Source of the DNA: a virus
IMG/VR virus record: IMGVR_UViG_3300025898_000005
Span: 1-64,000 of that record
Length of the DNA stretch: 64,000 nucleotides
Direction: 5' to 3' (one strand)
Shown here piece after piece: positions 3,669-62,354 of the stretch. The number at the start of each line of letters is the position of its first letter. Within the stretch, counting starts at the first letter, position 1. Below the pieces are notes generated by a model. It did no database searches. It saw nothing but the letters and a program-made list of their open reading frames with translations, and had not been told where the DNA came from. A program made the translations under genes and the position numbers.

Positions 3669-5461
3669 ACTACTTCGATATCGGCACGGTAATGAACCGC
3701 CTCATTCTTTTGAAGACCCGGCTCCTGGTCACTGGCGGCAGCGGATCAGGAAAATCCTACCTTCTTCGAAAGATCATGGAAGAGAATAGCGGGCAGGTCC
3801 CCATGATCATCATGGACATCGAAGGGGAATTCGTCACCCTCCGGGAGGAATTCCCCTTCGCCCTGGTGGCGGTCAGTGACGGGGATCTTCCCCTTTCCGT
3901 CCAATACGCCGACATCCTGGCCCGGAAGATCATCGAAACCCGGCTTTCCGTTATCATCGATCTTTACGACCTCCTTTCCCACGAACGGGCCCAGTTTGTG
4001 GATAAGTTCCTGAAGGCACTGATGAACCTGCCGAAGACTTTATGGTTGGACACCCTGATCTTCATCGATGAAGCCCATTTATTTTGCCCCCAGACCGATA
4101 AGGCGCTGTCCGGGAACGCCGTCATTGATGTGATGACCCGGGGCCGGAAGCGGGGCCTTGCCGGCATCCTTTCCACCCAGCGACTGGCCAAGCTCCACAA
4201 GGATGCCGCCGCCGAATGCCAAAACAAGATGATCGGCAAAACCAGCCTGACGATGGATATGGAACGGTCTGCCGATGAACTGGGTCTGTCCCGTAAGGTC
4301 ATCGGCCCCATGCTGCGGGCCCTGCAACCTGGTCAATTCCTTGCCCATGGTCCTGCCTTCATCAATGAACTGGAACAGGAAACGGATGGGAAAATCGAAG
4401 TTACTCCCGTAAAGACCAGCCACGAAAAAAGGACCGGTGGGCAATCGATGCCGTCGACTCCCCCTTCTATTCGGGACATCCTGGCCAGCCTTCAGGACAT
4501 CCCCCAGGAAGCGGAAAAGGAATTGAAGACCGTTGAAGAACTACGGATTGAAGTTTCCAGTCTCCGGGAGCGGCTTAAAAAATGGGGCGCCGGAATCCCC
4601 CCGAATGATAAGGAAGCCGGCCTGATCACCCGATACCAGAACAATCTGGCGGCGATCAGCAAAGAACGGAACCGATATAAGGAGGACTGGCTCGTAACAC
4701 AGAAACAGTTGGTGGAATTGGCGGTGATCGTTGACAAACAGCGAAAGGTGATTATATCCATCCTGGATATTACCCGGGATCATCTGGGAGCGGAAAAAAG
4801 CAATGTTCACATTTATAACGGCAGTCCCGGCAATGTTTCCGATGCCGAATTTGAAAAATCCGTTGAATTCGAAATGCACCTGCAGGATGACGTTCATCCC
4901 GAACGCAATGGCAATTATCTGGCAAAGGAAACCAACCTGGGCCCCGGGAAGGCTCGGGTGGAATTGAAACCTATCGAAGGACCTGCCAAATTGGGCCGGT
5001 GTGAAAGGACCGTGCTTTCCTGGTTATCCGGGTTCGACCGCGCCTTCACAAAATACCAGATAGCCATGGCCACGGGATATTCCCAGACCTCCGGCGGTTT
5101 CAAGAATGCCCTGTCTATCCTGCGGACCGAACAATTGATCGAAGGCAAAGACCTGATCAAAGCCGTCAATGAAGATAAATTCGAAAATTATGGCATGATC
5201 CCGCTTATAAAAGGGAAAGTAACCGTCCATACCTACCGCAGCCGCCCGGGTCTTTGTGAACGGACTATCCTGGATTTCCTGGCCGATCATCCCAAAGTCC
5301 TTTACACTAAGGCAGAACTGGCTGAAATTACTGGTTATTCGGCTACTTCCGGGGGCTTTAAAAATGCCCTTTCAATATTGCATAGTCTGGAAATGGTTAA
5401 AAAGACAGCCATCGGCTTTGAAATTCATCCATCTTTGCCTATCAATAAAAAATCATCATGA
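3665..5461 (+). CDS. HerA/FtsK-like ATPase with tandem winged-helix tail
   Basis: A 598-aa protein. The N-terminal 240 residues form a P-loop ATPase: Walker A is GGSGSGKS at about 24-31, Walker B is TLIFIDEAHLF near 130, and a TRGRKRGLAGILSTQ segment follows that is typical of HerA-type hexameric DNA translocases. A coiled-coil region (about 280-370) follows. Two copies of a winged-helix-like unit end the protein, at about 446-498 and 530-582; each contains CERT(V/I)L and a GY-S-T-S-GGFKNALSIL motif. The protein probably pumps or remodels DNA, possibly with the nuclease at 1602. HerA in archaea and bacteria pairs with NurA-type nucleases, but no NurA was found here. Confidence 0.75.
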   Translation: MNYFDIGTVMNRLILLKTRLLVTGGSGSGKSYLLRKIMEENSGQVPMIIMDIEGEFVTLREEFPFALVAVSDGDLPLSVQYADILARKIIETRLSVIIDLYDLLSHERAQFVDKFLKALMNLPKTLWLDTLIFIDEAHLFCPQTDKALSGNAVIDVMTRGRKRGLAGILSTQRLAKLHKDAAAECQNKMIGKTSLTMDMERSADELGLSRKVIGPMLRALQPGQFLAHGPAFINELEQETDGKIEVTPVKTSHEKRTGGQSMPSTPPSIRDILASLQDIPQEAEKELKTVEELRIEVSSLRERLKKWGAGIPPNDKEAGLITRYQNNLAAISKERNRYKEDWLVTQKQLVELAVIVDKQRKVIISILDITRDHLGAEKSNVHIYNGSPGNVSDAEFEKSVEFEMHLQDDVHPERNGNYLAKETNLGPGKARVELKPIEGPAKLGRCERTVLSWLSGFDRAFTKYQIAMATGYSQTSGGFKNALSILRTEQLIEGKDLIKAVNEDKFENYGMIPLIKGKVTVHTYRSRPGLCERTILDFLADHPKVLYTKAELAEITGYSATSGGFKNALSILHSLEMVKKTAIGFEIHPSLPINKKSS

Positions 5462-6684
5462 AAACGAAAATTATCCTTTACCTCTTCTACAGCGTATTGG
5501 CCTTTCATTCATCCAATACCTTATATGTGACAGCCTTCGGAGCTACCGGCAACGGGATCACCGATGACACCAACGCCATCAATACCGCCCTGGCGGCCGC
5601 CGCCTCCCAGCAGAAAACCTTGGTCTTCCCGGCAGGTACCTACCTTTGCAACAAGGTGGATGGGTCCGGAAATATCCTTTCCTTCGCAGCTGGTGGCCTG
5701 ACCAGTCCCGCGATCGTCGGCCAGAACGCCATCATAAAAACCACTAAGGATTCTGCCTGCACCCAGCTTTATATCTACGCCTTTTCGGGCTGCAGCGGAC
5801 TGGCAATCAGTGGTATCTTCTTCCAGAATACCCACGGCAAGATCACGGGAATAACGGATGCCATCTTTATGACAGGGACTGGCGGCCAGTTGCTGACCAA
5901 CGTATATGTCCAAAACTGCCGCTTTGAAGGATTTAGTCAGGCAGTCGCTGGGCAGGGTATTACTGGATGGTATATTCAGAATAATACTTTCGGCGCCCCC
6001 CAGGGACATGATAACGGCCAGCAAACCACTGATCCCTGCGTTGGCATCTGGCTTTTCGATAATAGTAACGGAGTCTGCCGTTCAGTCTTCATCCAACGAA
6101 ACAAGGCCAGCGGATATACGGGCACCTTTCCAATGGCCTGCAAAAGACCGCTGGATGGCTTTGTCTATGGCAGCGGCTACGGCCTTCACATCGATCATAA
6201 TCAGACCGATTATTATTCCGAAGAGCATTTCATGATCAACCCCCAGACCGCGGCTACCGATTCCGTCACCAATATTTCCAATAATGAAATAAATTGCCGC
6301 CTGCCTGCGGGATCCCAGAATGACGACAATTCCCCGCATGTCATCAACTACGGCATCCGGGCGGATGTTTCCAATGCCTATATCGGCGGCAACAACATCA
6401 CCAGTTATACCTATGGCATCATGTTCCGCGGCATCGATTACCCCACCACCACTTTCACCAACCTGGAATATGATGGAAACCAGTTGTATGCTCCCACCGA
6501 CACGGTGGCATATTCCATTCAAAAGGCCATTACCATCACTGGCAGCACAGGCCACCCTGTAACGGGAATAAAGGTCCACGGTACAACCACCCGGTTTATT
6601 GATGCCCAGCCCATTGAACTGATCAATACGACCGGTGCCCAATCCTTCAGTAATAATTTCTATCCTTTCAATTTCATACAGTAA
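5458..6684 (+). CDS. Secreted right-handed beta-helix (pectate-lyase-like) protein
   Basis: A 408-aa protein starting in the ATPase stop (ATGA). A Sec signal peptide (MKTKIILYLFYSVLAFHSSN) leads into TAFGATGNGITDDTNAINTA, the standard opening of the pectate-lyase superfamily beta-helix used in phage tailspikes. Repeated rungs such as ISGIFFQN, YVQNCRFEGF, YIQNNTFG and ISNNEINC follow. It could be a polysaccharide depolymerase or tailspike. Its site among replication genes, far from the fibre region, and its export signal are odd and suggest an envelope or secreted role. The catalytic residues cannot be fixed by eye. Confidence 0.7.
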   Translation: MKTKIILYLFYSVLAFHSSNTLYVTAFGATGNGITDDTNAINTALAAAASQQKTLVFPAGTYLCNKVDGSGNILSFAAGGLTSPAIVGQNAIIKTTKDSACTQLYIYAFSGCSGLAISGIFFQNTHGKITGITDAIFMTGTGGQLLTNVYVQNCRFEGFSQAVAGQGITGWYIQNNTFGAPQGHDNGQQTTDPCVGIWLFDNSNGVCRSVFIQRNKASGYTGTFPMACKRPLDGFVYGSGYGLHIDHNQTDYYSEEHFMINPQTAATDSVTNISNNEINCRLPAGSQNDDNSPHVINYGIRADVSNAYIGGNNITSYTYGIMFRGIDYPTTTFTNLEYDGNQLYAPTDTVAYSIQKAITITGSTGHPVTGIKVHGTTTRFIDAQPIELINTTGAQSFSNNFYPFNFIQ

Positions 6685-7796: not shown

Positions 7797-8120
7797 ATGA
7801 AAAAGATCATCCCGCTGCTGATCATCGCCTGCCTGGGTGCCTGCAAACGCCCACTAACCAATCATCAGCTATTTTGGAAATATCAGGACAGCACTAATAA
7901 ATATATGGCGCTGCAGATTGACATGCAGTGTTTTGAAATCGATGCCGTCATAGCCAATAAGCGGGATGATTATTTTTATTATGATCGGATGGCAACGATG
8001 GCAGGAGAAGAAGCAACCAGATATCAGGACAGCGTGGATAAATACTTCCAGGCTTTCGAACGAGATCAGGCGGCAACCTATCTACAACAACGCGCATTTT
8101 CTCACCAAAAACCAAAATAA
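7797..8120 (+). CDS. Small lipoprotein
   Basis: A 107-aa protein. The N-terminus MKKIIPLLIIACLGACKRP is a lipoprotein signal peptide with a lipobox ending at Cys16. The mature part is charged and helical, with Tyr- and Gln-rich segments, and is predicted to be periplasmic. Known roles of phage lipoproteins include superinfection exclusion, receptor blocking and outer spanins; none can be chosen here. It abuts the Acb2-like gene with no gap, so the two are probably co-translated. Confidence 0.6.
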   Translation: MKKIIPLLIIACLGACKRPLTNHQLFWKYQDSTNKYMALQIDMQCFEIDAVIANKRDDYFYYDRMATMAGEEATRYQDSVDKYFQAFERDQAATYLQQRAFSHQKPK

Positions 8121-20157: not shown

Positions 20158-20661
20158 ATGAAAAAGTTTCTCGTTCTCTCTTTTTTGGTGATCGGCTTCA
20201 TTGCCAGCACTTTCGCCCAGACCCGGGTGGTAAATACCGGCGTATTGACCCAGGGACAGTTCCTGGATTTCGGTGGCACCTACCCCAATGGCGGAACCCT
20301 GAATCCTTCGGATTCCCTGCAGGTATCGGATTCCATCGCGTATTTTATCCCGGTGCAGCATACGAATAATTTATCACCATACCTTACCTGGTATTGGAAT
20401 AAGATCGGCGCTGGCACGGCGACCATTACGTTGACCTTTTTGCAGTCCAATGATAACGTCAACTGGTTCGCGGTACCGAAGGGCGCCGCTCAATCTGCCT
20501 ATTCCAAATCCTACACATTGTCCGCAAATACGTGGAGCAACGTATCTTTTAAACAGGATACGGCTATTTTTGAGGGGCGATATCTGAAGGTCTACTTCAT
20601 TACCTCTTCCACCGCCAGCGTAAAAGGCAAACTTTTCAACCGGCTCAAAACCTCCTTTTAA
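20158..20661 (+). CDS. Secreted beta-rich protein after capsid gene
   Basis: A 167-aa protein with a Sec signal peptide MKKFLVLSFLVIGFIASTFA, probably cleaved after FAQ. The mature part is strand-rich (ATITLTFLQSNDNVNWFAV, FEGRYLKVYFITSS), of jelly-roll or Ig-like type. Its place directly after the capsid gene would suit a head decoration protein, but cytoplasmic head assembly and an export signal do not fit together. It could instead be exported to the envelope. No family recognised. Confidence 0.6.
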   Translation: MKKFLVLSFLVIGFIASTFAQTRVVNTGVLTQGQFLDFGGTYPNGGTLNPSDSLQVSDSIAYFIPVQHTNNLSPYLTWYWNKIGAGTATITLTFLQSNDNVNWFAVPKGAAQSAYSKSYTLSANTWSNVSFKQDTAIFEGRYLKVYFITSSTASVKGKLFNRLKTSF

Positions 20662-26212: not shown

Positions 26213-27271
26213 ATGTATTTTAACGGGAAAATATCGGTTACGATCACAAACCAAACTACCGGCAGGGTGGCCCAGTTGCAGACTGTCCATTCCGTGCATA
26301 CTAAAAATGACAGTAAGGAGATAGGAGCTTCCTGTGATATCGTTGTTCCCCTGGCTACCCGGGTACAATATCAGGACGGTGCCCATGATTACCTTACGGC
26401 GATCACTAAGACCCTTTTTTCCACAGGGGATGCAGTGCTGGTCAAAGCCCACTATGAGACAAATGAAAACGGATTTTTGGAAATCCTTCCTGAAATTGAA
26501 GTTTTCAACGGCTTCGTCTATGAGTTTATTGAGGCCACCCCGATGAAGATTCGGTGCCTGGACAATATCTTCATGCTCAATCAGTCCGTTATCAACCTGA
26601 ATAAGGGATCGATAAAACTGAAGGACCTGCTGAACCTGGTGCTCAAAGGGACGGGGATCGACCTGCAATTGCCGACCCTGGACCTTTCCCTGGTCAATAT
26701 TACATTCCGCCTTATGAGCCCGGCTGCCATTCTGGAATGGATCAAAAAGGAACTGGGCCTGAATATTAGCCTGCATGGCCGCACCCTTTATTGCAATATT
26801 GCCAGCAACACGCTGAACGTGGTCAATTTCGATACCCGGCGCAACGTGATCAAAAGCAACCTGCAAAAGCCGGAAGCGGTATACCTGAAGATTCAAGTGA
26901 AATGCTGGTTTATTATGGAAAACGGGAAGAAGGCCAGCCTGGAAGTGGGGGAGCCCGGGGGGGAAATCCGGGAAGTATTCTTTTACCGGATACCGTTTGA
27001 CCTGGCGAAATATGAGCAACTGGCCAAAGAAGCCCTTATCAAATATAAGCAGTTCAAGTACAGCGGAAATATTGAGACTTATCTATATCCCGACTGCCAT
27101 CTATTCGATAAGGTAGTGTATTTAGATGCCCGGTACCCGGACAGGAATGGGAATTACACGGTGGTGGCGATCAATCACGAAATTGATGATAAAGGCTACC
27201 ACCGGAAGATAAAACTGGCCTATCTGTCTGACATTCCATCACCCCCCACCATAATACCCACATCAAATTGA
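26213..27271 (+). CDS. Baseplate hub protein (gpD/gp27-like)
   Basis: A 352-aa protein. The repeated beta-barrel features (VFNGFVYEFIEATPMKIRCLD; later YLDARYPDRNGNYTVVAINH), size and order tube-tape-hub-spike match the late-control/hub family. The hub trimer closes the tube and carries the spike. It is followed without gap by the spike gene, whose TTG start overlaps the stop. Confidence 0.7.
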   Translation: MYFNGKISVTITNQTTGRVAQLQTVHSVHTKNDSKEIGASCDIVVPLATRVQYQDGAHDYLTAITKTLFSTGDAVLVKAHYETNENGFLEILPEIEVFNGFVYEFIEATPMKIRCLDNIFMLNQSVINLNKGSIKLKDLLNLVLKGTGIDLQLPTLDLSLVNITFRLMSPAAILEWIKKELGLNISLHGRTLYCNIASNTLNVVNFDTRRNVIKSNLQKPEAVYLKIQVKCWFIMENGKKASLEVGEPGGEIREVFFYRIPFDLAKYEQLAKEALIKYKQFKYSGNIETYLYPDCHLFDKVVYLDARYPDRNGNYTVVAINHEIDDKGYHRKIKLAYLSDIPSPPTIIPTSN

Positions 27272-30143: not shown

Positions 30144-31079
30144 ATGGCAGATTTAATACAGGCACCCGCTGAACGAATAGTATATGATGGAATTGACAAT
30201 CCCATCTATGACCAGGATCTTGTGGTGGCCACCCAGAATGCCATCAGCCTGGTCCTGGCCTTGTCGGGAGCGGATGGGGGCGATTTCTTTATCATTTCGG
30301 GTCTTTATTATGTCCCGGGCGTTCCCAATACGTACACGCCGGGCTTTTTTATATTGGGGCGCAAACTGTATGTCTGTACACAAAATTTTGTGGAAGGAAG
30401 TTATCTGGGTCCAAACGTTCAGCCTACTCAGAATGAAGGCTTTAATGATGGTACATCCAGAAATATTTATCAGTCCTATGGATCATTGATATCACCCACC
30501 CCGGACCCGACCTATTCCCCCCAGTTCGAAGGGAATATGAATCAGTACCGGATTGGGAATAAATATCTGGGGCTTTCGGTAATATCCCTGCTGGCCACGC
30601 AGGCCAGCCTGGGAAATGCTTCCACTAAGAATGTCGGCACTACGGCCGGGACGGTCGCCGCCGGCGATGATCCCCGGATGCCTTATACAGCGGCCCAACT
30701 GGCGGCCCTGTTCGTCATGCCGCCCGAAGTAATCCTGAAGGGGGATACAAATGCCTATACACCAGCTGGGCCCAATGATCCGGTAAATAAAAATTATACG
30801 GATACCAACTTCATAAAGAAACTGGCTTCCGGAAATGCGGCCGTGGGGGATGTTCCATCTGGGGGTAAATCGGTGGCGTTGGCCTTCGGTGTTACTCTCC
30901 CGGATACTAATTATATTGTTCTGGTCAGCGTGGTATCTGCCGGCGTTCCAGGAAATGATGCCAGCCTTCATACGCCAGTTATAGTTAACAAAACAACTGC
31001 TGGATGTAGTGTTCAACTAAATGAAGGGGTCGGTACCGTGCAAAATGTTAGTTTGGATTGGATCGTGCTTTCTAAATAA
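30144..31079 (+). CDS. Tail fibre or fibre-attachment protein
   Basis: A 311-aa protein starting at the base after the previous stop. Its mixed beta content (FFIISGLYYVPGVPNTYTPGF) and a segment GDTNAYTPAGPNDPVNKNYTDTNF, of the kind used as coiled linker in fibres, suit a fibre base. The C-terminal domain is a small beta-sandwich (TNYIVLVSVVSAGVP). Unlike the following genes it lacks a signal peptide. Confidence 0.55.
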   Translation: MADLIQAPAERIVYDGIDNPIYDQDLVVATQNAISLVLALSGADGGDFFIISGLYYVPGVPNTYTPGFFILGRKLYVCTQNFVEGSYLGPNVQPTQNEGFNDGTSRNIYQSYGSLISPTPDPTYSPQFEGNMNQYRIGNKYLGLSVISLLATQASLGNASTKNVGTTAGTVAAGDDPRMPYTAAQLAALFVMPPEVILKGDTNAYTPAGPNDPVNKNYTDTNFIKKLASGNAAVGDVPSGGKSVALAFGVTLPDTNYIVLVSVVSAGVPGNDASLHTPVIVNKTTAGCSVQLNEGVGTVQNVSLDWIVLSK

Positions 31080-31085
31080 ATGTAT

Positions 31086-34000
31086 ATGAGAAAAGTATTA
31101 TTTCTGCTGTCTCTTCTTTATGCCGGCTATGCCCAGGCACAGATCCCGCAATGGATCAATCAGCCGTATATTTTCCTTAAATGGATCAATGTCCGGGACA
31201 GCATGCGTTGTCAAATCTACTTCCAGGGAACCAATGACACCCTGGCCACCCAGGCCTATGCCCGGGGACATGGCGGGGGAGGGAGCGGGAACCCGCTGCC
31301 GGGATATGGCATAAAGATCACTGGCGGCGACACGGTGAGCATCGACACGGCCAACTACCGAAAGATGGATAGTCTGTATGTGGTGACGGATTCCACTTTC
31401 ATTGTAAAGATCAATGGCCGGGTTTATGCCTATAAAATGCGCGGGAACGTCTTTTCCTTCAACGGGCGCACCGCAGCCGTGGTCCCGCAGGATAACGATT
31501 ATGCAGCCTTTTATCCGAAACTGGATAGTACCTATAATGACCCGTCTTTTATTTCTCACATATCCTTCCCGAAAATAACGTCATTACCCTATACGCTGGC
31601 GGGATACAATATCACCGATGCCGTTCGAAACGCCGGCGGGGTTCGAACCTGGCAGCAGGATGTTTATGCCAACCGGCCGGCATTCGGGAACCTGGGGGCA
31701 TTCTTCTATGCCACGGATTCCAATGCCATCTACTTCGATACGGGCGCCGGTTGGACAAAGGTGACCACGGCAACCAGCGGGGGGGGAACAGATTCGGCCG
31801 TATTAGCCGGTAACCTGCTGATCAAAACGGTCAGCGGGACCGCTATTACCCTGAAAGTGGATACCAATGGCCTGAAATCTTTCATCGGAACCTTGACCGG
31901 GATCACCCAACTTTTCAGCAAACGGGGGGCGCTGATATCTGGCACCGACACGGTGGGGATTGATAGTTCCGTGGTCATTGCCTATACCGATACGCTATCC
32001 GGGGGCAAGATCGTCACCAAAACCTTCCTTACCAATCGGGGATACCTGACATCGGAAACGGATCCCGTGGCCACGGCAAAGACGATCACCCTGACCCAGG
32101 TTGCGAACCGTGGGGTTATTATAGCGGGAACGGCGGGGCAAACGCTGGGATCAGGCCCTGCCTGGACTATAACGGCGGATACGGCCTTTCTGGCGACAAA
32201 TACTTACGTCAATCGACAAGGATTCATAAAGGCAAACCAGACCATTACGCTATCTGGTCAGGCATCAGGATCTGGAACTACGGCGATCACGGTTGCCCTG
32301 GCGACCAATACGGTGACTTATGCCCAGTTCCAGCAGGTAGCTGCCAGTTCCCTGGTGGGGAATCCGACCGGGTCCTTGGGGAATGCCCAGGCGATCGGTA
32401 TACAGGCCCCGCTGATCTTCAGCAGCAGCGTACTAAAACTGGATACCACCGTTGTCCATAGTCTGGGTTTCAACGATGGCCGATACCTGACATTTGATTC
32501 CATCCGGGTGGTGGGAGTAGGAACCGGCGGCGTATCCATTGGATATGCACAGGGTTCGGATACCCTTAACCTTGCCCGACTGATCTCTGGGTCAAATATC
32601 ACCCTGACCAAAAATTCTGACAGTTCGATCACCATAGCAGCCGCCAGCGGCTTCAGCAATCCGATGACCACTTCTCAGGATTTGATCGTTGGCGGGACTG
32701 CCGGAGCGGCCGGGCGCCTGGGGGCGGGCGCAAATGGGACTTTCCTGGGGGTTCAATCCGGCGTGGTCGGATATTATACGCCACCTGGTGCGGTCAGTTC
32801 AGTGGCACCAGCAAATGGATCATTGATCATAAGTCCTACTTCCGGCAGCGTACTGGCATCGCTCAATCCGGCCTTTACCGATAGTTTCACCGTTATCCAG
32901 AAATTCGCCGCCGGCATGAATATAGGGGGAACCCTAACGCTTTTAAGTACAACATCCGCCGGGTCTGCCCTGAATACCAAACTGCAGGTCCTGGTGCAGG
33001 ATACCAGCGCGGGACAGGGGATTGTTTATCGTAGATCCTTCCAGGGAATGGATACTACAGGCCTTGGTAAGAACCAGGGATGGATTCCCTACTATGATAC
33101 GACCTGCCATTGCTGGAAGACGGAAGCAGCGCCCTCCGGCGGGGGAGGTTCGGGGAATACCAATTCCAATGTCGGGGGCGGTTACCGGTGGGCGATTCCC
33201 GGCACCAACAATGTAAAGACGGCCACGGTTGGCATAGGCCTTAGTGCGGATAGCATTGTCACCAATACGCTAAATTTTAAGGCTGATACTTCCTACCTGG
33301 TCACACTTGCTTCCGGTCAGAATATTACAGGGAATAAAAACTTAGGTGGCACCCTAACGCTTTCGGGTACCGGAGGGGCATCTTCCGCTTTGAATGGAAA
33401 ACTAAAAATCCTGATGGCCGACACGACCGCACAAAATACCGTTTATACCCGATCCTTTCAGGGAATGGACACGACCAATCTGGGTAAAAATCAGGGATGG
33501 ACGAATTATTATGATACCACCTGTAAGTGCTGGAAGGTGCAAGCTCCCCCTGGGTTCGCCAATCCGATGACTTCGGCTGGCGACCTGATCGTGGGCGGTT
33601 CTGCAGGTGCGCCAACCCGGGCGGCTGGCAATAATACCACCACACCCCAGGTCCTATGGGGAACCGGTACCGGGAGTGCCGCCACGGCCCCGGTATGGCA
33701 CACCCTGGTAAAAGGGGATATCGGACTGGGGAATGTTGAAAATACCGCATTATCGACCTGGGCGGGATCTTCATCCCTCACTACCCTGGGAACCATTGGG
33801 GCAGGCGTATGGCAGGGATCACCGGTAACGGGTCAGTTCGGTGGTACGGGGATCAACAATAGCGGAAAGACCATCACGCTGGGCGGAAGTTTTGCTACTT
33901 CCGGGGCCTTCCCGTTGACGTTTACCCTATCTGGCTCTACGAATGTCACGCTTCCCGTCTCTGGGACGCTGGTCAATAGTTCGGTGACGACCCTTTCTTC

Positions 34001-34772
34001 CTTGGCGGGAGTGGGAACGATTACATCGGGAACCTGGCAGGGCGGCATTGTCGGGCCGATATTTGGGGGTACCGGGGTGAACAATGGGATCAGCACCATC
34101 ACCCTGGCCGGGCCGCTGGTAACTACCGGGGCCTTTACCACGACATTGACCGCTACCGGAACCACGGCCGTGACGCTGCCGACATCCGGTACTTTATACG
34201 GTACGCAGGCGGGATCCATTACTTCGGCCCAGTTACTGGCATCTTTGACAGATGAAACAGGAACGGGTACGGCGGTCTTTTCTGCATCTCCGGCTTTGAC
34301 GGGAACACCGACCGCCCCCACGGCAGCGCCAGGGACCAATACTACCCAGATTGCCACCATGGCCGCCATTCAGGCTGCAACGGGGGCTGCCATCCCTTCC
34401 GGTGGATTAGCTGCGGGAACCTATACACCTACTCTTATTTCCACTTCTCTTGGTGGCATAGTTACGCCTGGTGTTTTCAAATATCAAAGAGTGGGGAATG
34501 TTGTCCATTACAGCGGGCCCGTTTCAATATCCGCTGAACCTGCCACAAATACGCAATACACGGTGGATATCTCCTTACCGATAAGTTCTACTTATTCCGC
34601 AGCAACGGATTTGAACGGGGTATGCGTAACCACCGGATCCGGAGATGCCCCCGGTTGGGCCACTGCTTTAAACAATTCTGGAACCATTGTTTCCAGAAGT
34701 CGGATGTGGTCTACCATCAACGCGGGTAATGGGGTGACCATCATAATTGAAGGAACTTATATCGTACAATAA
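31086..34772 (+). CDS. Giant fibre-like protein with signal peptide
   Basis: A protein of 1228 aa from ATG 31086; ATG 31080 is also possible. MRKVLFLLSLLYAGYAQAQ is a clear Sec signal peptide. The mature part is Gly/Ser/Thr-rich and repetitive, like tail fibres. Two related modules contain YRRSFQGMDTTGLGKNQGW and YTRSFQGMDTTNLGKNQGW near residues 645 and 785. A stretch of TLGTIGAGVWQG-type repeats follows. The C-terminal 130 residues look like a distinct binding domain. It could be a receptor-binding fibre or a phage-encoded surface protein. Confidence 0.65.
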   Translation: MRKVLFLLSLLYAGYAQAQIPQWINQPYIFLKWINVRDSMRCQIYFQGTNDTLATQAYARGHGGGGSGNPLPGYGIKITGGDTVSIDTANYRKMDSLYVVTDSTFIVKINGRVYAYKMRGNVFSFNGRTAAVVPQDNDYAAFYPKLDSTYNDPSFISHISFPKITSLPYTLAGYNITDAVRNAGGVRTWQQDVYANRPAFGNLGAFFYATDSNAIYFDTGAGWTKVTTATSGGGTDSAVLAGNLLIKTVSGTAITLKVDTNGLKSFIGTLTGITQLFSKRGALISGTDTVGIDSSVVIAYTDTLSGGKIVTKTFLTNRGYLTSETDPVATAKTITLTQVANRGVIIAGTAGQTLGSGPAWTITADTAFLATNTYVNRQGFIKANQTITLSGQASGSGTTAITVALATNTVTYAQFQQVAASSLVGNPTGSLGNAQAIGIQAPLIFSSSVLKLDTTVVHSLGFNDGRYLTFDSIRVVGVGTGGVSIGYAQGSDTLNLARLISGSNITLTKNSDSSITIAAASGFSNPMTTSQDLIVGGTAGAAGRLGAGANGTFLGVQSGVVGYYTPPGAVSSVAPANGSLIISPTSGSVLASLNPAFTDSFTVIQKFAAGMNIGGTLTLLSTTSAGSALNTKLQVLVQDTSAGQGIVYRRSFQGMDTTGLGKNQGWIPYYDTTCHCWKTEAAPSGGGGSGNTNSNVGGGYRWAIPGTNNVKTATVGIGLSADSIVTNTLNFKADTSYLVTLASGQNITGNKNLGGTLTLSGTGGASSALNGKLKILMADTTAQNTVYTRSFQGMDTTNLGKNQGWTNYYDTTCKCWKVQAPPGFANPMTSAGDLIVGGSAGAPTRAAGNNTTTPQVLWGTGTGSAATAPVWHTLVKGDIGLGNVENTALSTWAGSSSLTTLGTIGAGVWQGSPVTGQFGGTGINNSGKTITLGGSFATSGAFPLTFTLSGSTNVTLPVSGTLVNSSVTTLSSLAGVGTITSGTWQGGIVGPIFGGTGVNNGISTITLAGPLVTTGAFTTTLTATGTTAVTLPTSGTLYGTQAGSITSAQLLASLTDETGTGTAVFSASPALTGTPTAPTAAPGTNTTQIATMAAIQAATGAAIPSGGLAAGTYTPTLISTSLGGIVTPGVFKYQRVGNVVHYSGPVSISAEPATNTQYTVDISLPISSTYSAATDLNGVCVTTGSGDAPGWATALNNSGTIVSRSRMWSTINAGNGVTIIIEGTYIVQ

Positions 34773-34778
34773 TAAATT

Positions 34779-35798
34779 ATGAAAAAACTGCTATTTATCC
34801 TGCTATTCCCGATTCTCACCCAGGCCCAGACCAACCAGGGTGCATTCATGTATAACTATGGCGCTGCGGTGCCGGTGATCTTCGAAAGTGGTTCGCTGGC
34901 CCCGTTCACCACCGTATCGCCAGCGGCATCCACTCCGGCAAAAACATTCACCTTTACCGCCAGCAGTTTGACCGGTTCGGTGACCGCTACGGCCGATGCC
35001 CCGATGCAGGTCGCCCCGGATGGGTCAACCTTTGCCACCACGGCCGTTTTCGGTCAAACCCTGGGTATATCTTCAGGAACCGTTTCCGTACGAATAGCAG
35101 CTAGTACAGCGGTAGGTAGTTATTCGGGTAAAATCCGGCTTACTTCTCCCGGCGCTGCCTTCGTGGATGTTCCCTTCACCGCGACCGTCACATCCGGAGC
35201 CACCTTAACCGTGGTAAAGTTCAATATCTGGGATGCCAGTCAAACAAATGGGAAAGTATTGCAGTCTGGGTTTAATAACTGGAATCCATCGGATCTTCTT
35301 TTTGGCCAGACCACCACTTCCGGCGCCATGACAGATACGACCGGTGCCAGCACGGCCGTGACTATGACCTTATCGGCGGGACCTGAAGCGGATGTACAGG
35401 GATTTTATACCAACAATGGTGAACCGTATGCTGCTGCCACCACGGCACCCTATCCAGATACTTTGTTTGAAATTCCTTACCTCTTCACGACCGGCGGGGA
35501 ATCCTCCGGAACGGATTCCATTATTTTCAATGTTCCTGGCATCACACCTTCATCGGGGGGGTTTAATATTGAACTAATCAGCAGCCGGTCGACAGGGACC
35601 AGCAGACCGCAAACTTTCACTTGTAATGGCACGACGATTCCACTGGATGCCCAAAATAACCTGAATAATCTTACCGGCGGGCGGGTGCCCCTTCACTGGG
35701 ATAATGTTCCTGCAGTAGGGGGGCGGATTGTGGTGGTCATGAAATATACAGCCACTTTTGTCTATGCCAATGGCGGTAAAATATCGTGGATACCTTAA
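34779..35798 (+). CDS. Secreted Ig-like/beta-sandwich protein
   Basis: A 339-aa protein; MKKLLFILLFPILTQAQ is a Sec signal peptide. Residues about 35-135 match the Bacteroidota extracellular repeat type FTTVSPAASTPAKTFTFTAS ... SYSGKIRLTSPGAAFVDV, a short Ig-like domain found in many secreted proteins. The C-terminal 200 residues form a second beta-rich domain that is unlike typical phage fibres. It is probably acquired from, or shared with, host surface proteins. Role: exported adhesin-like protein or virion appendage. Confidence 0.6.
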   Translation: MKKLLFILLFPILTQAQTNQGAFMYNYGAAVPVIFESGSLAPFTTVSPAASTPAKTFTFTASSLTGSVTATADAPMQVAPDGSTFATTAVFGQTLGISSGTVSVRIAASTAVGSYSGKIRLTSPGAAFVDVPFTATVTSGATLTVVKFNIWDASQTNGKVLQSGFNNWNPSDLLFGQTTTSGAMTDTTGASTAVTMTLSAGPEADVQGFYTNNGEPYAAATTAPYPDTLFEIPYLFTTGGESSGTDSIIFNVPGITPSSGGFNIELISSRSTGTSRPQTFTCNGTTIPLDAQNNLNNLTGGRVPLHWDNVPAVGGRIVVVMKYTATFVYANGGKISWIP

Positions 35799-35809
35799 AA
35801 CTTAACTAT

Positions 35810-36289
35810 ATGAGAATCATCACCTTTTTATTGATCCTTTTTTCTTCCATCTGCCGGGCCCAGGATGTAACCGGGGATGTAAATAAGTTGATCAATGGCC
35901 AAATAAATACATTCAGTATGGGACTGGATAGTATTATTGTTCACACACAACTTACTTCAGGGACTACCGCTGCCTTCGTGGATACCCTTCGACTGCCCAT
36001 CAATACTACCTGTTTATATTCCATTCACTTACAGGCGGAAAATATTAACACGCTGGAAACGGCCAGGGCTTACAAAGAGATAGAAATTAAAAACATCAAT
36101 GGGGTCTATTCCTTTCCGGGATCCACCGATGTGGTCGCCTATCCCGGTCAATCGGCCACGACCAGCATTTCGAAAGCAACCTGGTCCATCCTATCCAGCG
36201 GTGGGATTTATGTCATCCGGGTGGCAGGAGTGGCTGGCGTAAATATGAAATGGACCATTACCCGAACGCAAATAATAACTGCATTATGA
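35810..36289 (+). CDS. Secreted small beta-rich protein
   Basis: A 159-aa protein. ATG 35810 gives the signal peptide MRIITFLLILFSSICRAQ; the earlier ATG 35786 lies in the preceding gene. The mature part is a strand-rich domain (CLYSIHLQAENINTLE, YVIRVAGVAGVNMKW), resembling a fibre head or jelly roll. Its stop overlaps the next start (ATGA), so it is co-translated with the large esterase-like protein. Confidence 0.55.
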   Translation: MRIITFLLILFSSICRAQDVTGDVNKLINGQINTFSMGLDSIIVHTQLTSGTTAAFVDTLRLPINTTCLYSIHLQAENINTLETARAYKEIEIKNINGVYSFPGSTDVVAYPGQSATTSISKATWSILSSGGIYVIRVAGVAGVNMKWTITRTQIITAL

Positions 36290-39200
36290 AGAAACTTATT
36301 TATTTCACAATTTTGGTATTCTTAGGACTTATCGGTAAGTCCCAGACGGCTGGGACCATCATCAATGTGCCTTATACCACGGCTTCTACGCCGACCTTCC
36401 AGGCATACCTGTATCTTCCCAATGACTACGGGACCACCGGTTCCCAGCGGTATCCGCTTTTCATATTCCTGCATGGCTCCGGGGAATCCTGCCCACCAGT
36501 GTCGAACATATACAATTCCACTACCGCCGGGGGACCGCTCTATTTTATCGAACATGGCCTGTGGCCAACTGGCGGATTTATGAATTACCGGACCGGAGCT
36601 ACTGAAAAATATATTGTTCTGGGTCCACAATCCGCCTGTAATTCCTGGTCTACTTCCGGAGATCAACTAGCGAACATCAAAACGTACATGGTGCAGAATT
36701 ACCGGGTGGATAGCAATCGGATCATCGTTTCCGGTCTTTCTTCCGGTGGTGGTGGAACGGTAGAAAATACGGCCAATCTTAGCGGGAATGAAACGACCCA
36801 GACCTTCCCTTCCCGTTATAAGAATGCCGCCGTGATCCCCATGAGCCCCGCCACGAACAATCCCCTGCAGGCTTGGGGGGCGCAATTCGTTACGGATTCC
36901 GTTCCCTCCTGGTTCTTCGGGGATCAAAACAATGACACCTATGGGGAATATGCCTGGAACTTCGCCCGGCGCCTACCCACCCCCAACGCGACCACCAACG
37001 GCTTCATCAATGCCATAAAATTCGGATATGCCTATTTTACCGGCAACCCGGGGACAAATGGCGTTTCCACTTTTAACACCGGCCATGGACCTTGGAATAC
37101 TTACTACAATCCTACCTTCCGGGTATCCTTTACTGATTCCACCATAAAGCCGGCGGTGACTGGGACCTTCAGCATTTATGAATGGGGGCTGATGCATGTG
37201 CGCAATTCGGTCGCCGTGACCACGCCAACGGCCAACGCTGGCAGCAATCAGTCCATCACCCAGCCGACCAGCACGGTGACGCTAACAGGATCAGGAACGG
37301 CCGGCACTGGCCATAATATCCCGACTTCAGGCGGATATGCCTGGACCCAGGTATCTGGGCCCACTTCAACGATCACTACGCCTACGTTATCTAGCACCAC
37401 CGTGACCGGCATGACAACGGCCGGGGCCTATGTCTACCAGTTGAAAGTCACCAATGAGATAGGGGCCTTCGCTACCAGTCAGGTGACAATAACGGTGATC
37501 AGCAATGCCCCGCATGCGAATGCTGGACCTGATCAAACGATCACCCTGCCCATCAGTTCCGTCACGCTTGACGGTACAGGATCTTCTGGCGGGATTACTT
37601 CCTACGCCTGGTCCCAATTGACCGGACCCAATACCGGAAATATCAATTCCGCAACGGCCGCCACCACATCGGTGACTGCCCTGATCGCCGGGGTCTATAC
37701 CTTTCAATTATCGCTGAATTCCGGGGCCAGCAAGGATACGGTGCAGATCACCGTGCAGCCGGTTCAGCCGTGCGGTCCTCACAACAAGATCATTCTGCAT
37801 CCTTTTTCGGACAGCACTTATTTTATCAATAACGCCGTTTCCCATACCTTCCAGGCTGGTGACACGATTGTCTTTACCCATACAGATGTATGGAAAAGTG
37901 CCGTCTTCCAGAATATGAACGGCGCCCCGGGTTGCCCTATCGTGCTGCAAAACGATTCCGGTCCCATTCCTTTTACAAGTCCTCCGAATGGTCACCGGTC
38001 CGGTAATGATTACAGTGGAATGAAATTCGCGTCCTGTTCTCATATTCACCTGCAGGGGAATGCGGATCCTACCACCAAATATGGTTTCTTCTTCCAGTAT
38101 GATCCGGTCTTCGTTTATCAGACCACGCCGGCGCTGATCATCGATGACAAGTCTACCAACGTGGAAGTTAACAATGTATCTTTCCGGAATGTGGATATTG
38201 CGATCGTCGCGGAAGTAACGGAGAATTGTGACACGACCTTCAACTGGCCCAATTGGTTCATGGATAGTATCATCATCCATGATATAAAGGTTCGACGGAC
38301 CTGGAATGAAGGGTTTTACCTGGGAAATACGAGTCCCGACAATGCCCTTTATGATCACCGGCCAACCGTTTGTGGGGTAGATACTTTTTATTATAAACCT
38401 GCCAAAAATGGATATACACAGGTTTATAACATTGATATGGATAGTACCGGCCGGAGTGGTATACAGTTGGCCAATGCGATCGTCAACCCAGCCGGGGCCC
38501 GGTCGGAAATCTTCAATTGTACGGTCAAACATGCTGGATTGAATGGCGATGATGCACAAGGGTGCGGTATCGATCCGGGACTTTATACCGTGGTCCGGAT
38601 TCATGACAATGTGATCACCAATACATATACTTTTGGCGTTGGCAGTTTGGGAGCCAATGGGACCAGTACACCGCTGGAAATCTATAATAACCGGATAGAC
38701 AGTGCCGGATTTTTGAGAACGTTCAATAATGCCACCACGGATTCCGTTCGTTATAATCCTGAAACGGCGCCTACCTTCCGGGATAGCCTGACCTATCCTT
38801 ATCCCATTTTTGTGACCACCAGACCGATGTCCTTTACTACCGACAGCCTGCCAGGTACGGCCATCCATGGGCTGGATAGTCTCAATTTCATCATCAAAAA
38901 TAATACCTTGGGTCTTTTTAAGGCGGCGACACGGCCGGACAGTAATGTCGTTGGTAACTCTACGGCTGCCATCCAGATTGAACAGGACAGCCGAAATACC
39001 ACCATTCAAAAAAATGGGAATGTGATCTGCGGGAATACATTCTTCAATGATCAGCCGGCCACAGTCTTCACCGACAATCGGCAGGGAGTGATCAATTATT
39101 CAACGAACTGCGGGAATGCTATTAAAAGACTGATAGCCAGTATTGGGGATGCCGTAGATGCCCCCGCAATTGTGGCCGATACGCTGATCCTGCCGTTGGA

Positions 39201-39525
39201 TTCCACTTTTATCGAAGGTTATGCCCTGGCCGATTCTTTGAATAATATTACAAATCTCACCATCACCCAAATAGGGGGGCCATCTTGTACCATTACGCAG
39301 CGCCTGAGAATACCAACCAGCGGGATAGGGCAATCCCTTATTATTGATTGGGATATTAAAAAAATGTTGACCCCGGGAATCTATTCCTTTTCCATAATAG
39401 GATTTTCCGATGCAGGAACCACTGCCAGTACTTCCGTATCGATCACCATCCTGGGGGCCTTACCCAATCCAAAAAATTACATGCCAGTTCATAAGTATAG
39501 TAAAAAACGTATATTGGGGCACTAA
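36286..39525 (+). CDS. Secreted esterase-PKD-beta-helix protein
   Basis: A 1079-aa protein. A signal peptide (MKKLIYFTILVFLGLIGKSQ) is followed by an alpha/beta-hydrolase domain (about 25-315): FIFLHGSGESC gives the oxyanion region, Ser152 in GLSSG is the likely nucleophile, with Asp213 and His267 as candidate partners. Two PKD/Ig-like modules follow (about 317-402 and 409-490; opening ANAGSNQSI and ANAGPDQTI). Next is a right-handed beta-helix (about 500-985) with many N-rich turns. The C-terminal part is beta-rich. It could be a spike that removes acyl groups and binds or cuts glycans, or a secreted enzyme made by infected cells. Confidence 0.7.
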   Translation: MKKLIYFTILVFLGLIGKSQTAGTIINVPYTTASTPTFQAYLYLPNDYGTTGSQRYPLFIFLHGSGESCPPVSNIYNSTTAGGPLYFIEHGLWPTGGFMNYRTGATEKYIVLGPQSACNSWSTSGDQLANIKTYMVQNYRVDSNRIIVSGLSSGGGGTVENTANLSGNETTQTFPSRYKNAAVIPMSPATNNPLQAWGAQFVTDSVPSWFFGDQNNDTYGEYAWNFARRLPTPNATTNGFINAIKFGYAYFTGNPGTNGVSTFNTGHGPWNTYYNPTFRVSFTDSTIKPAVTGTFSIYEWGLMHVRNSVAVTTPTANAGSNQSITQPTSTVTLTGSGTAGTGHNIPTSGGYAWTQVSGPTSTITTPTLSSTTVTGMTTAGAYVYQLKVTNEIGAFATSQVTITVISNAPHANAGPDQTITLPISSVTLDGTGSSGGITSYAWSQLTGPNTGNINSATAATTSVTALIAGVYTFQLSLNSGASKDTVQITVQPVQPCGPHNKIILHPFSDSTYFINNAVSHTFQAGDTIVFTHTDVWKSAVFQNMNGAPGCPIVLQNDSGPIPFTSPPNGHRSGNDYSGMKFASCSHIHLQGNADPTTKYGFFFQYDPVFVYQTTPALIIDDKSTNVEVNNVSFRNVDIAIVAEVTENCDTTFNWPNWFMDSIIIHDIKVRRTWNEGFYLGNTSPDNALYDHRPTVCGVDTFYYKPAKNGYTQVYNIDMDSTGRSGIQLANAIVNPAGARSEIFNCTVKHAGLNGDDAQGCGIDPGLYTVVRIHDNVITNTYTFGVGSLGANGTSTPLEIYNNRIDSAGFLRTFNNATTDSVRYNPETAPTFRDSLTYPYPIFVTTRPMSFTTDSLPGTAIHGLDSLNFIIKNNTLGLFKAATRPDSNVVGNSTAAIQIEQDSRNTTIQKNGNVICGNTFFNDQPATVFTDNRQGVINYSTNCGNAIKRLIASIGDAVDAPAIVADTLILPLDSTFIEGYALADSLNNITNLTITQIGGPSCTITQRLRIPTSGIGQSLIIDWDIKKMLTPGIYSFSIIGFSDAGTTASTSVSITILGALPNPKNYMPVHKYSKKRILGH

Positions 39526-39534
39526 AATTTTTAT

Positions 39535-39852
39535 ATGAAAAAATTACTGCTATTACTTAGTTTCTTATCAATCTGCCTGCTGACATTCAGCCAGGATCAC
39601 CAGGTCAACCCATTGAAAAAGGATACGGTGAAGGGAAAGATTCCGGCTGGTAAAAAGGTGATCGCCGCCAAAAAGGATACGATTCCGCCCCTATCCATTA
39701 TCCCCCGGGAAAAGGCCTACGTGCTGATGTTGTCTGAAAATGAGATCCAGCGCCTTTATTCCATTGTACGCACTTCCGGCAAACTTACCGGCACGGAAAT
39801 AGAGGATTATCTCATATTGCTGGATCAGCGAAAAAAAGAGATAAAACAATAA
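39535..39852 (+). CDS. Small secreted protein, possible spanin-like
   Basis: A 105-aa protein with signal peptide MKKLLLLLSFLSICLLTFSQ and a Lys-rich mature part ending in a charged helix (EIEDYLILLDQRKKEIKQ). It lies at the start of the lysis region, before a one-TM protein, so a spanin-type role is possible. No lipobox Cys is present. Not a recognised family. Confidence 0.5.
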   Translation: MKKLLLLLSFLSICLLTFSQDHQVNPLKKDTVKGKIPAGKKVIAAKKDTIPPLSIIPREKAYVLMLSENEIQRLYSIVRTSGKLTGTEIEDYLILLDQRKKEIKQ

Positions 39853-39856
39853 ATTT

Positions 39857-40048
39857 ATGCCTGACATGACAACCCCGACAAATCATATTGATGCCCCTGG
39901 ATTAGCAATGATATTCTTCGGGCAGGGCTTTAATACGCTTGCTATGATAACCCGCACCGATGTAACCTATTTTCTTGGCCTCTTTTCGACATTATTGGCA
40001 ATTGCCTATTATACCCTGAAGATGTACAAAGAATGGAAAAGCAAATAA
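39857..40048 (+). CDS. Small membrane protein, holin candidate
   Basis: A 63-aa protein with one clear transmembrane segment (VTYFLGLFSTLLAIAYYTL) and a basic C-terminus KMYKEWKSK. Small size, charge and place near the endolysin candidate suit a holin. The sequence is A/T-richer than its neighbours. Confidence 0.5.
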   Translation: MPDMTTPTNHIDAPGLAMIFFGQGFNTLAMITRTDVTYFLGLFSTLLAIAYYTLKMYKEWKSK

Positions 40049-40074
40049 TCTTCAACCTTTTAAAAGTTAAGTAT

Positions 40075-40482
40075 ATGAAATCAACCAAGTTATCGCTCAT
40101 TTTTGCTTTGGCCATCGGGGTGTCCTTCGTGGCCATTGGACAGAACCTGAAGGACAGTGCGGGCAGTCCGCCGATCAAAGATTCCACCCAGTACGTGGCT
40201 GACAGCGTTCAGATCGCCACCCAGATGCAGCCTACCATTGTCGGTTTGCCTGTATCGCGGCCAGTTCAATCAATCTTTATCGCGGTCATTACCGCCCTGG
40301 CTACGGTCCTGGGCGCTGTTCAGTATGTCTTGAAAAAGATACCTACCCCGGTCAGTGTAAAAATTGAAGGGGTTGTGGGGAAAATATTGGATGTGGCGAC
40401 CTTCTTCCAGCCGGATAGAAGTACCAATGGCGGCGTTCATGCGGATAAACCGGATCCACTAAGTGCGCCGAAGAAGCCCTGA
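40075..40482 (+). CDS. Exported membrane protein, lysis region
   Basis: A 135-aa protein from ATG 40075. The N-terminal segment MKSTKLSLIFALAIGVSFVA is a signal peptide or signal anchor (then IGQ). A second hydrophobic segment (SIFIAVITALATVLGAVQYV) precedes a basic tail. This two-segment layout suits a holin or an inner-membrane spanin. Family not recognised. Confidence 0.5.
   Translation: MKSTKLSLIFALAIGVSFVAIGQNLKDSAGSPPIKDSTQYVADSVQIATQMQPTIVGLPVSRPVQSIFIAVITALATVLGAVQYVLKKIPTPVSVKIEGVVGKILDVATFFQPDRSTNGGVHADKPDPLSAPKKP

Positions 40483-42818: not shown

Positions 42819-42835
<17 letters not shown>
42440..42835 (+). CDS. Appendage protein, unknown
   Basis: A 131-aa protein. ATG 42440 follows the promoter-like box TACCTTTA at 42427, which fits a new transcript after the terminator. 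The sequence is beta-rich ([37 protein letters not shown]) and resembles small Ig-like domains near fibre genes. It overlaps the collagen-like gene by 17 nt, so the two are probably made together. Confidence 0.5.
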
Positions 42836-44603
<1,768 letters not shown>

Positions 44604-59919: not shown

Positions 59920-60010
59920 ATTATCCAAAGAATACCGGGATTTTAACTACGGTTGGATTCAAATAATTTTCGTGATCGCTCTTTTTTTAATTATTAAATA
60001 TTTATTATGA
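59906..60010 (+). CDS. Membrane micro-protein, 34 aa
   Basis: ATG 59906 overlaps the preceding gene by 14 nt, and its stop overlaps the next start (ATGA). A basic, polar start (KRNKLSKEYRDFNYGW) leads into one hydrophobic helix (IIFVIALFLIIKYLL). Coupled on both sides, so likely translated. Confidence 0.5.
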   Translation: MKRNKLSKEYRDFNYGWIQIIFVIALFLIIKYLL

Positions 60011-60336
60011 AACGATGCATTTTTGTTTTTGGGCTGGCCCTGGTGGTCGCCCCCGCTTTCTCCCAAGCCTTGGTGGCTCCGCACCCGGTCAAAAACTCCT
60101 GCACCGGCCAGTGGGCCATCCGCATGGGCCCGCACACCTTCATGGGTAAGTTTCACTACCAAGGCACCAACAAGATGGATGCTGTCCACTACGGGCAGGA
60201 ATTGAAGTTCCCCGATAGCGTGACGGCCGCCAATGTGCTGAAGACAATCCCGGAACTGGTCGATTATGTCGCCGGCGCCCGGCATGAACGGGATCACCAG
60301 CATGACAGTATTCCCCATTGCCACTATAACCAATAA
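60007..60336 (+). CDS. Small secreted protein
   Basis: A 109-aa protein. MKRCIFVFGLALVVAPAFSQ is a signal peptide; the mature part is His-rich towards the end (GARHERDHQHDSIPHCHYNQ), suggesting metal binding. Periplasmic location is predicted. It shares no recognisable family. It follows two membrane genes and precedes envelope-modifying enzymes. Confidence 0.55.
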   Translation: MKRCIFVFGLALVVAPAFSQALVAPHPVKNSCTGQWAIRMGPHTFMGKFHYQGTNKMDAVHYGQELKFPDSVTAANVLKTIPELVDYVAGARHERDHQHDSIPHCHYNQ

Positions 60337-61775: not shown

Positions 61776-62354
61776 ATGAAAAATAAGATTCCCTTACTCC
61801 TGATCGCCATGTCTGCTATATTCACGGCCCAGGGACAAACCAAAACCGATCAATGGATCAAAAAGATGGTCTTTGATGACTATTTCACGACAATCCAGCA
61901 TACCGATAGCTTGGAAAAGAAATTTAAACGGTTTCAGCGGATCATCCAGGATCAGGAATATATGCATCATAACCTGGAAAACGCTTTTTTTGAAGAACTG
62001 CTGGCCATTTATTCCAAAATAGATAGCCTGGGAAAAAGGATAAAGGCCTTGGAGGACCGGCCTACCTTAATGTTTCACGAACCCAGTCTGATATTGCCGT
62101 CCTATCCGACCATCATCGGCAAGGACGCTTTATGGCTAAACCTGCAAAATACACTTTATTCGGTACCGCAGCCAACGACCATCTATTCCCTGGGCTTATC
62201 ATCGGGTGGCGCTCCACCTACGTTGGATGGGCCCGCTTTTGCTCCTATCGGTTCAGGATATTGGATTCCGGCCGATACCATCGAATATAAATTCACTGAC
62301 ACCATCATGGGAGTGACCCGAAAGCCGGTCACGAAGTTAAAAAAGAAGAAGTGA
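61776..62354 (+). CDS. Exported coiled-coil protein
   Basis: A 192-aa protein from ATG 61776, 1 nt after the GT2 stop, giving the signal peptide MKNKIPLLLIAMSAIFTAQG. An in-frame start at ATG 61686 would add a second membrane segment (IIYIAIVTPIAGGLIWTLI) and cannot be excluded. A helical region (about 15-100) is followed by a Pro/Gly-rich segment and a basic end. Periplasmic or anchored; function unknown. Confidence 0.55.
   Translation: MKNKIPLLLIAMSAIFTAQGQTKTDQWIKKMVFDDYFTTIQHTDSLEKKFKRFQRIIQDQEYMHHNLENAFFEELLAIYSKIDSLGKRIKALEDRPTLMFHEPSLILPSYPTIIGKDALWLNLQNTLYSVPQPTTIYSLGLSSGGAPPTLDGPAFAPIGSGYWIPADTIEYKFTDTIMGVTRKPVTKLKKKK

Follow-up and report, generated by a model that had tools for sequence, protein, structure and literature searches.

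The window analysed here, which covers 64,000 nt of a 64,123-nt virus record in IMG/VR, contains a run of seven consecutive genes, immediately after the baseplate genes, in which six products (31086-40482) begin with a predicted signal peptide (SP). With a probability of about 0.5 for the explanation as a whole, we propose that the fibre-block genes encode appendages with which a contractile-tailed Bacteroidota phage binds receptors and degrades glycans, and that these would be exported and would dock on virions at lysis.

Gene order and affiliation

According to the gene annotation, head and contractile-tail genes are ordered from left to right in the window. The features that frame the SP genes are as follows.

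9409, terminase, head/tail block
11184, portal, head/tail block
13085, Mu-F-like head protein, head/tail block
17423, protease-capsid fusion, head/tail block
21322, sheath, head/tail block
23744, tape measure, head/tail block
26213..27271, plus strand, baseplate hub (phrog_4930, 2.7e-37); further baseplate-region genes come next
30144..31079, plus strand, conserved protein without SP that fills the short-tail-fibre slot directly upstream of the SP genes (homologues L002:8206 and L015:14231)
42819..44603, plus strand, collagen-like tail fibre without SP (PF01391; phrog_5073, 7.8e-50)

The hub shows distant kinship with that of the Winoviridae (Flavobacterium and Winogradskyella phages), and closer kin of the phage are uncultivated (L002, L003 and L013-L017); GTDB genomes gave no relatives of the hub, by alignment search, or of the 36286 protein. 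These relatives and the glutamine rule described below point to a Bacteroidota host. The phage keeps SP-less appendages: 30144 occupies the short-fibre slot, and the collagen-like 42819 is an ordinary fibre within a genome that also encodes SP fibre-like proteins. A Pfam search with 30144 was without match and its structure model reached only pLDDT 30. Judged by eye, the C-terminus of its L002 and L015 homologues resembles a tail-collar domain.

Identification of signal peptides

SPs were identified with a home-made scorer of n-, h- and c-regions and lipoboxes, an SP-type N-terminus being defined by K/R in the n-region, a hydrophobic core of 8-14 residues and an AxA-like site. On control genomes the scorer's sole picks were Lom, Rz and the lipoprotein Bor for lambda and the SAR endolysin for Mu, with no virion protein picked in either phage. 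In the window it identified SPI-type SPs in nine proteins (20158, 31086, 34779, 35810, 36286, 39535, 40075, 60007 and 61776) and a lipobox at 7797; 60007 was scored separately because an antisense ORF had masked it in the gene list, and the start of 40075 is an internal ATG of ORF 40033. Nine N-termini scored at least 9, against 0.3 expected from shuffled N-termini (84 genes), and a run of at least five consecutive SP genes has P = 6e-4. The five consecutive SP genes reported in the first-pass annotation are thus borne out and were slightly understated, 40075 having been missed from its list of run members. The genes of the run are given below.

31086..34772, plus strand, 1228-aa long-fibre-like protein directly after the baseplate/short-fibre genes; SP MRKVLFLLSLLYAGYAQA, predicted to be cleaved before QIPQWINQPYIFLKW; score 12.3, +1 Q
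34779..35798, plus strand, 339-aa SP protein of no family; SP MKKLLFILLFPILTQA then Q; score 11.4
35810..36289, plus strand, 159-aa SP protein of no family; SP MRIITFLLILFSSICRA then Q; score 9.9
36286..39525, plus strand, 1079-aa SP protein with a PHB-depolymerase-like esterase and two K319L-like PKD domains (PF22352, 3.8e-38); SP ends ...GLIGKS, then Q
39535..39852, plus strand, small K-rich SP protein of 105 aa in the lysis region, not fibre-like; SP ...LLTFS then Q; score 10.3
39857..40048, plus strand, 63-aa protein with one TM-like segment (hydropathy), holin-like by position
40075..40482, plus strand, 135-aa SP protein, sixth in the run; SP MKSTKLSLIFALAIGVSFVAIG then Q; score 11.9

Other candidates in the window lie outside this run.

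5458..6684, plus strand, pectate-lyase-like tailspike protein (PF12708, 1.3e-9; phrog_2234 tail spike), SP doubtful
7797..8120, plus strand, 107-aa putative lipoprotein; lipobox LGAC
20158..20661, plus strand, 167-aa SP protein in the decoration/cement slot, immediately 3' of the protease-capsid fusion gene; SP ...ASTFA then Q
60007..60336, plus strand, 109-aa SP protein outside the structural block; SP ...VVAPAFS then Q; score 11.6
61776..62354, plus strand, 192-aa SP protein outside the structural block; SP ...AIFTAQG then Q; score 11.4

The SPs of the five genes first reported had been described as ending in AQ or SQ. Glutamine occupies +1 at all nine SPI sites of the window, in keeping with the Bacteroidetes Q-rule. 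When the cleavage site was called without using Q, +1 Q was still present in 7 of the 9 window proteins and in 19/30 across all SP proteins studied, at a background Q content of ∼3%. For comparison, more than 60% of P. gingivalis SPI substrates have Q at +1 (PMC5837995). The Q-rule is specific to the host group, and an N-terminus that is hydrophobic by chance would not be expected to follow it. We regard the window N-termini as almost certainly genuine export signals, and export and cleavage of the proteins as very probable. No T9SS C-terminal sorting domain family was found in a Pfam scan of the window proteins at E<=0.1, so the mature proteins, if exported, should remain periplasmic until lysis. 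As for the SPs claimed elsewhere in the window, those of 20158, 60007 and 61776 and the lipobox at 7797 were recovered, whereas that of 5458 is weak, scoring 7.6 with neither a clear site nor Q.

The fibre block lies after the baseplate genes within the structural block, the placement of tail fibre and tailspike genes. The label 'fibre-like', which had been applied to the five genes first reported, suits 31086, of which residues 71-179 (∼110 aa) match a protein annotated as tail fibre in Leeuwenhoekiella phage Arctus_1, itself without SP; an IMG/VR search with the whole 31086 protein returned only a generic fibre motif. With no family match for 35810, and for 34779 nothing above the curated Pfam cut-off and no PHROG match, the label rests on composition and position in these two cases. 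The longer mechanical start of 35810 is a GTG at 35786. The label does not suit 39535, which has no family in Pfam or PHROG searches; 39535 and 40075 are small proteins on either side of the one-TM protein 39857 (no match among PHROGs), and neither is fibre-like. The esterase assignment of 36286 derives from weak matches to NF050058, TIGR01840 and PDB 4q82/3doh. By eye its C-terminal half, which is without domain assignment, looks beta-helix-like. The mature parts of 36286 and 31086 contain 12 and 6 cysteines, respectively.

Over nearly its full length, with the SP counted in, the 20158 protein is 33-35% identical to L016:3186 and L017:4548, which occupy the same slot and have A or S at +1, and phage Pan5 encodes an SP+Q protein annotated 'cement' right behind its capsid gene. 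The structure model of 20158 is a beta-sandwich (mean pLDDT 65) with only weak beta-sandwich/CBM-like fold matches, so the 'cement' label rests on position and homologues.

Conservation and modularity

Proteins L002:9269 and L015:15211 have an SP and an N-terminus homologous to 31086 and lie in the same slot, after the 30144 homologue. The mature starts that follow SP+Q are related (QIPQWINQPYIFLKW in the window, QSPVIISQPYIFQKY and QVIITQPYRFTKR in L002 and L015), and L015 has two SP+Q genes of this kind consecutively. Within the gp103 family the first ∼35-65 residues are alike (most 60-93% identical), corresponding to the SP and ∼20-45 mature residues, and the C-terminal parts differ. In three phage families the conserved N-terminal module, made up of the SP and ∼40 further residues, is combined with exchanged C-termini. 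The C-terminal domains of Cellulophaga SP fibre-block proteins have matches among the structural proteins of phi17:2, phi4:1 and phi12:1, and the phi17:2 structural homologues examined have no SP; the SP start thus behaves like a virion-attachment module that is swappable for a cytoplasmic one. SP sequences vary between families with the n/h/c layout retained. In the comparison of 19:3_88 with 19:1_102 there are 6 synonymous and 0 non-synonymous changes, and the SP codons are, judging from the sequences of this pair, under purifying selection.

A DS[ILM] motif lies within the first 35 mature residues in 9/28 cases, against 4.5% of background windows. We set aside this candidate for a single shared N-terminal docking motif as post hoc, drawn from partly related sequences and without a host-secretome control.

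Virion detection in cultured phages

For the Cellulophaga phages, virion status was taken from the GenBank label 'annotation based on experimental MS/MS proteomics analysis'. Eleven fibre-block proteins are so labelled (phi10:1 gp91-94, phi19:1 gp101-104 and phi18:3 gp85-87); all 11 have a predicted SP, with +1 Q in 10. Sister records cite 'phi8:3_gp85-87' and the MS/MS note sits in the phi18:3 record; phi8:3 and phi18:3 are presumably one phage. The labels in phi10:1 and phi19:1 lie within the structural block, and other proteins of these phages (phi10:1 gp58, gp95 and gp106; phi19:1 gp61 and gp111) have SP+Q yet no MS/MS structural label, so the MS/MS detection is not merely of any exported protein. 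Co-purification of proteins from the periplasm or from vesicles might also account for such labels. On the database annotation we consider it likely that SP-bearing fibre-block proteins are virion components in the Cellulophaga phages, and, with less assurance, probable that this also holds for the window phage.

A survey of Bacteroidota phages, which the first-pass annotation had recommended, yielded SP fibre genes in Cellulophaga phages, Ingeline, L002 and L015. Matching SP blocks occur with four consecutive members in Ingeline_1 and five in phi46:3, and also in phi19:3, phi13:2 and Nekkels; the blocks of the Cellulophaga phages and Ingeline each have 2-5 SP+Q fibre/lyase proteins in a row. 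No SP was present on the large structural proteins of Flavobacterium 11b and 6H, Bacteroides B40-8, crAss001 and phi38:1. Fibres of phi17:2, phi38:1, crAss001 and Arctus_1 are SP-less, so SP fibres represent an alternative route and the trait is not universal.

A proposed assembly route and its alternatives

Virions of tailed phages are taken to be completed within the cytoplasm, and we know of no tailed phage with post-lysis assembly of appendages. In the route we propose, appendage proteins would leave the cytoplasm through the host Sec/SPI route, the SP would be removed, and the exposed N-terminal glutamine would probably be cyclised by host glutaminyl cyclase. The exported fibres would then fold and oligomerise in the periplasm, and holin and endolysin would join cytoplasm and periplasm at lysis, allowing the fibres to dock on the virion baseplate or short fibres. 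If the SP-bearing proteins are virion components, the lysing envelope is the simplest meeting point, because exported proteins would be periplasmic and virions cytoplasmic until lysis; we hold docking at lysis to be an evenly balanced proposition. We infer cleavage, periplasmic folding, the time and site of docking and the virion role of the window's own proteins. Possible gains would be oxidative folding, in view of the cysteines of 36286 and 31086, glycan-active enzymes kept out of the cytoplasm, and fibre loading only at exit. Among the four options listed in the first-pass annotation, attachment in the periplasm or during lysis is the best supported, because the SP fibre-block proteins of phi10:1, phi19:1 and phi18:3 are MS/MS-annotated in virions. 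Counting against the route, besides the want of a known precedent and the possible co-purification in the MS/MS data, are two observations: depolymerase domains homologous to SP-bearing ones are structural without SP in phi17:2, so export is not required for function, and the fibres of the window phage show no clear homology to those of the Cellulophaga phages.

The proteins might instead be exported without joining the virion, acting as free adhesins, esterases or depolymerases that alter the surface or surroundings or as surface proteins of the infected cell, with co-purification accounting for the MS/MS labels elsewhere. We consider this unlikely for the block as a whole, and yet a serious rival, above all for 36286, whose esterase and PKD architecture is that of a secreted enzyme; free secretion, another of the earlier options, may apply to single members such as this one. 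Pan5 20965 is likewise an SP+Q polysaccharide lyase with PKD, lambda Lom is exported from a gene directly behind tail gene J, and Q-rule phage proteins have been proposed to modify the outer membranes or envelope of P. gingivalis (PMC10367356). Set against these are the fibre-like sequence and baseplate-adjacent position, the location of MS/MS labels inside the structural block, with SP proteins encoded elsewhere in those genomes unlabelled, and the conserved N-terminal module with swapped C-termini, which is typical of virion-attached fibres. Display on lysogenic cells, also listed earlier, appears less likely: ten larger non-structural window proteins scanned included no integrase or transposase, and GTDB genomes yielded no relative of the hub. 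As to a lysogenic-conversion (moron) role, the SP run sits inside the structural block.

Retention of the hydrophobic N-terminus, as an inner-membrane anchor or as a membrane-targeting or assembly element in cytoplasmic assembly, seems improbable to us. Winoviridae capsid proteins do bear SP-like N-termini, without Q, and similar N-termini in P. gingivalis phages have been ascribed to prohead-protease processing (PMC10367356). The near-universal +1 Q, including at sites called without Q, is however sensible only with SPI cleavage, after which alone this residue is known to matter, and the SP sequence differs between families while its n/h/c layout is kept; the earlier option of uncleaved anchors is disfavoured on the same ground. 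That the SPs are relics of recently captured host genes with no phage role is very improbable: the PKD/esterase and PKD/lyase proteins appear host-derived, but the SP is under purifying selection and is kept across distant relatives while the protein body diverges, and the small structural-block protein 20158 and its relatives carry SPs too.

Returning to export followed by docking, we would extend it only tentatively, at somewhat under even odds, to a group of tailed phages, widespread in Bacteroidota, that would complete their virions outside the cytoplasm: exported, pyroglutamate-matured adhesins and depolymerases would dock at lysis, perhaps together with a decoration protein of the capsid. 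Were this true, tailed phages would have a second assembly pathway, the host's Sec and SPI machinery and its glutaminyl cyclase would join phage assembly, and fibres would be exchangeable between co-infecting phages, as shareable goods among phages lysing one cell. Taking an SP as an argument against a virion role would then be a wrong annotation rule for Bacteroidota phages.

Comparison with known systems

The Assiduviridae phi10:1, phi19:1 and Nekkels, which infect Cellulophaga, are like the window in that their structural block encodes SP+Q fibre/lyase proteins in succession, and phi18:3, phi19:3, phi46:3 and phi13:2 (Pachyviridae) and Ingeline (Duneviridae) have the same fibre/pectate-lyase type of SP+Q block. 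However, these phages belong to other families than the window phage, and their fibres are without overall sequence homology to those of the window, sharing at most a short possible N-terminal motif. Lambda Lom, exported and encoded directly after J, resembles the window SP genes beside tail genes, but Lom and Bor, which serve lysogenic conversion and are not virion fibres, are single genes without modular fibre features. Pseudanabaena phage Pan5 (ON968456) has a terminase related to that of the window (41.5%) and SP+Q proteins at matching cement, fibre and lyase positions, whereas its tail genes show no detectable homology and its deposited host is a cyanobacterium.

Our search of the open-access literature turned up no report that connects Sec signals with fibres or depolymerases detected in virions, which is weak evidence of absence, and on SPs in virion proteins of Bacteroidota phages PMC10367356 alone was directly relevant. 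It notes Q-rule proteins and SP-like capsid starts in P. gingivalis phages (proposed Nixviridae), among them five Q-rule genes of unknown function for which an envelope role was proposed, whereas the window has SPs on fibre-block proteins that are virion-associated in other phages.

Fibre and PKD proteins

A possible common motif, [IV]xQPx(6-8)[IV]xxxDS[ILM], was noticed post hoc about 20 residues past the signal peptide cleavage site, and was drawn from phage sequences alone, namely the fibre N-termini of L002 and L015 (uncultivated relatives), L027 and L031 and the long-fibre-like protein at window 31086. The window phage and Pan5 (L012, ON968456), otherwise different phages, have a PKD module in common, and both PKD products end in a short basic tail (SKKRILGH at window 36286, KKKQRIKGQ at L012:20965). 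Pan5 was deposited as a phage of the cyanobacterium Pseudanabaena; three of its proteins obey the Bacteroidetes Q-rule, its terminase is 41.5% identical to that of the window phage, and the phage may really infect a Bacteroidota bacterium that contaminated the culture.

Capsid proteins

In the window phage, head maturation protease and capsid protein apparently form one fused polypeptide of about 820-890 amino acids, which is kept in the uncultivated relatives L015 and L016:
window 17423-20098
L015:2071-4620
L016:677-3145

Winoviridae major capsid proteins carry signal peptide-like hydrophobic N-termini without Q at +1, possibly a segment cut off by the prohead protease or a sign of membrane-linked capsid assembly:
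L007:6083-7165
L008:4624-5631
L009:6023-7120

Possible surface-glycan and lysis genes

Two signal peptide genes of the window enclose a pair possibly involved in host surface-glycan modification:
60363-60953, hexapeptide-repeat acyltransferase-like protein (LpxA-like by eye)
60950-61774, family-2 glycosyltransferase

In Bacteroidota phages, holin/amidase genes repeatedly adjoin small proteins with a signal peptide and Q at +1, which are candidates for a spanin-like role in lysis:
window 39535-40482, two proteins
L008:17335-17700
L007:19606-20016
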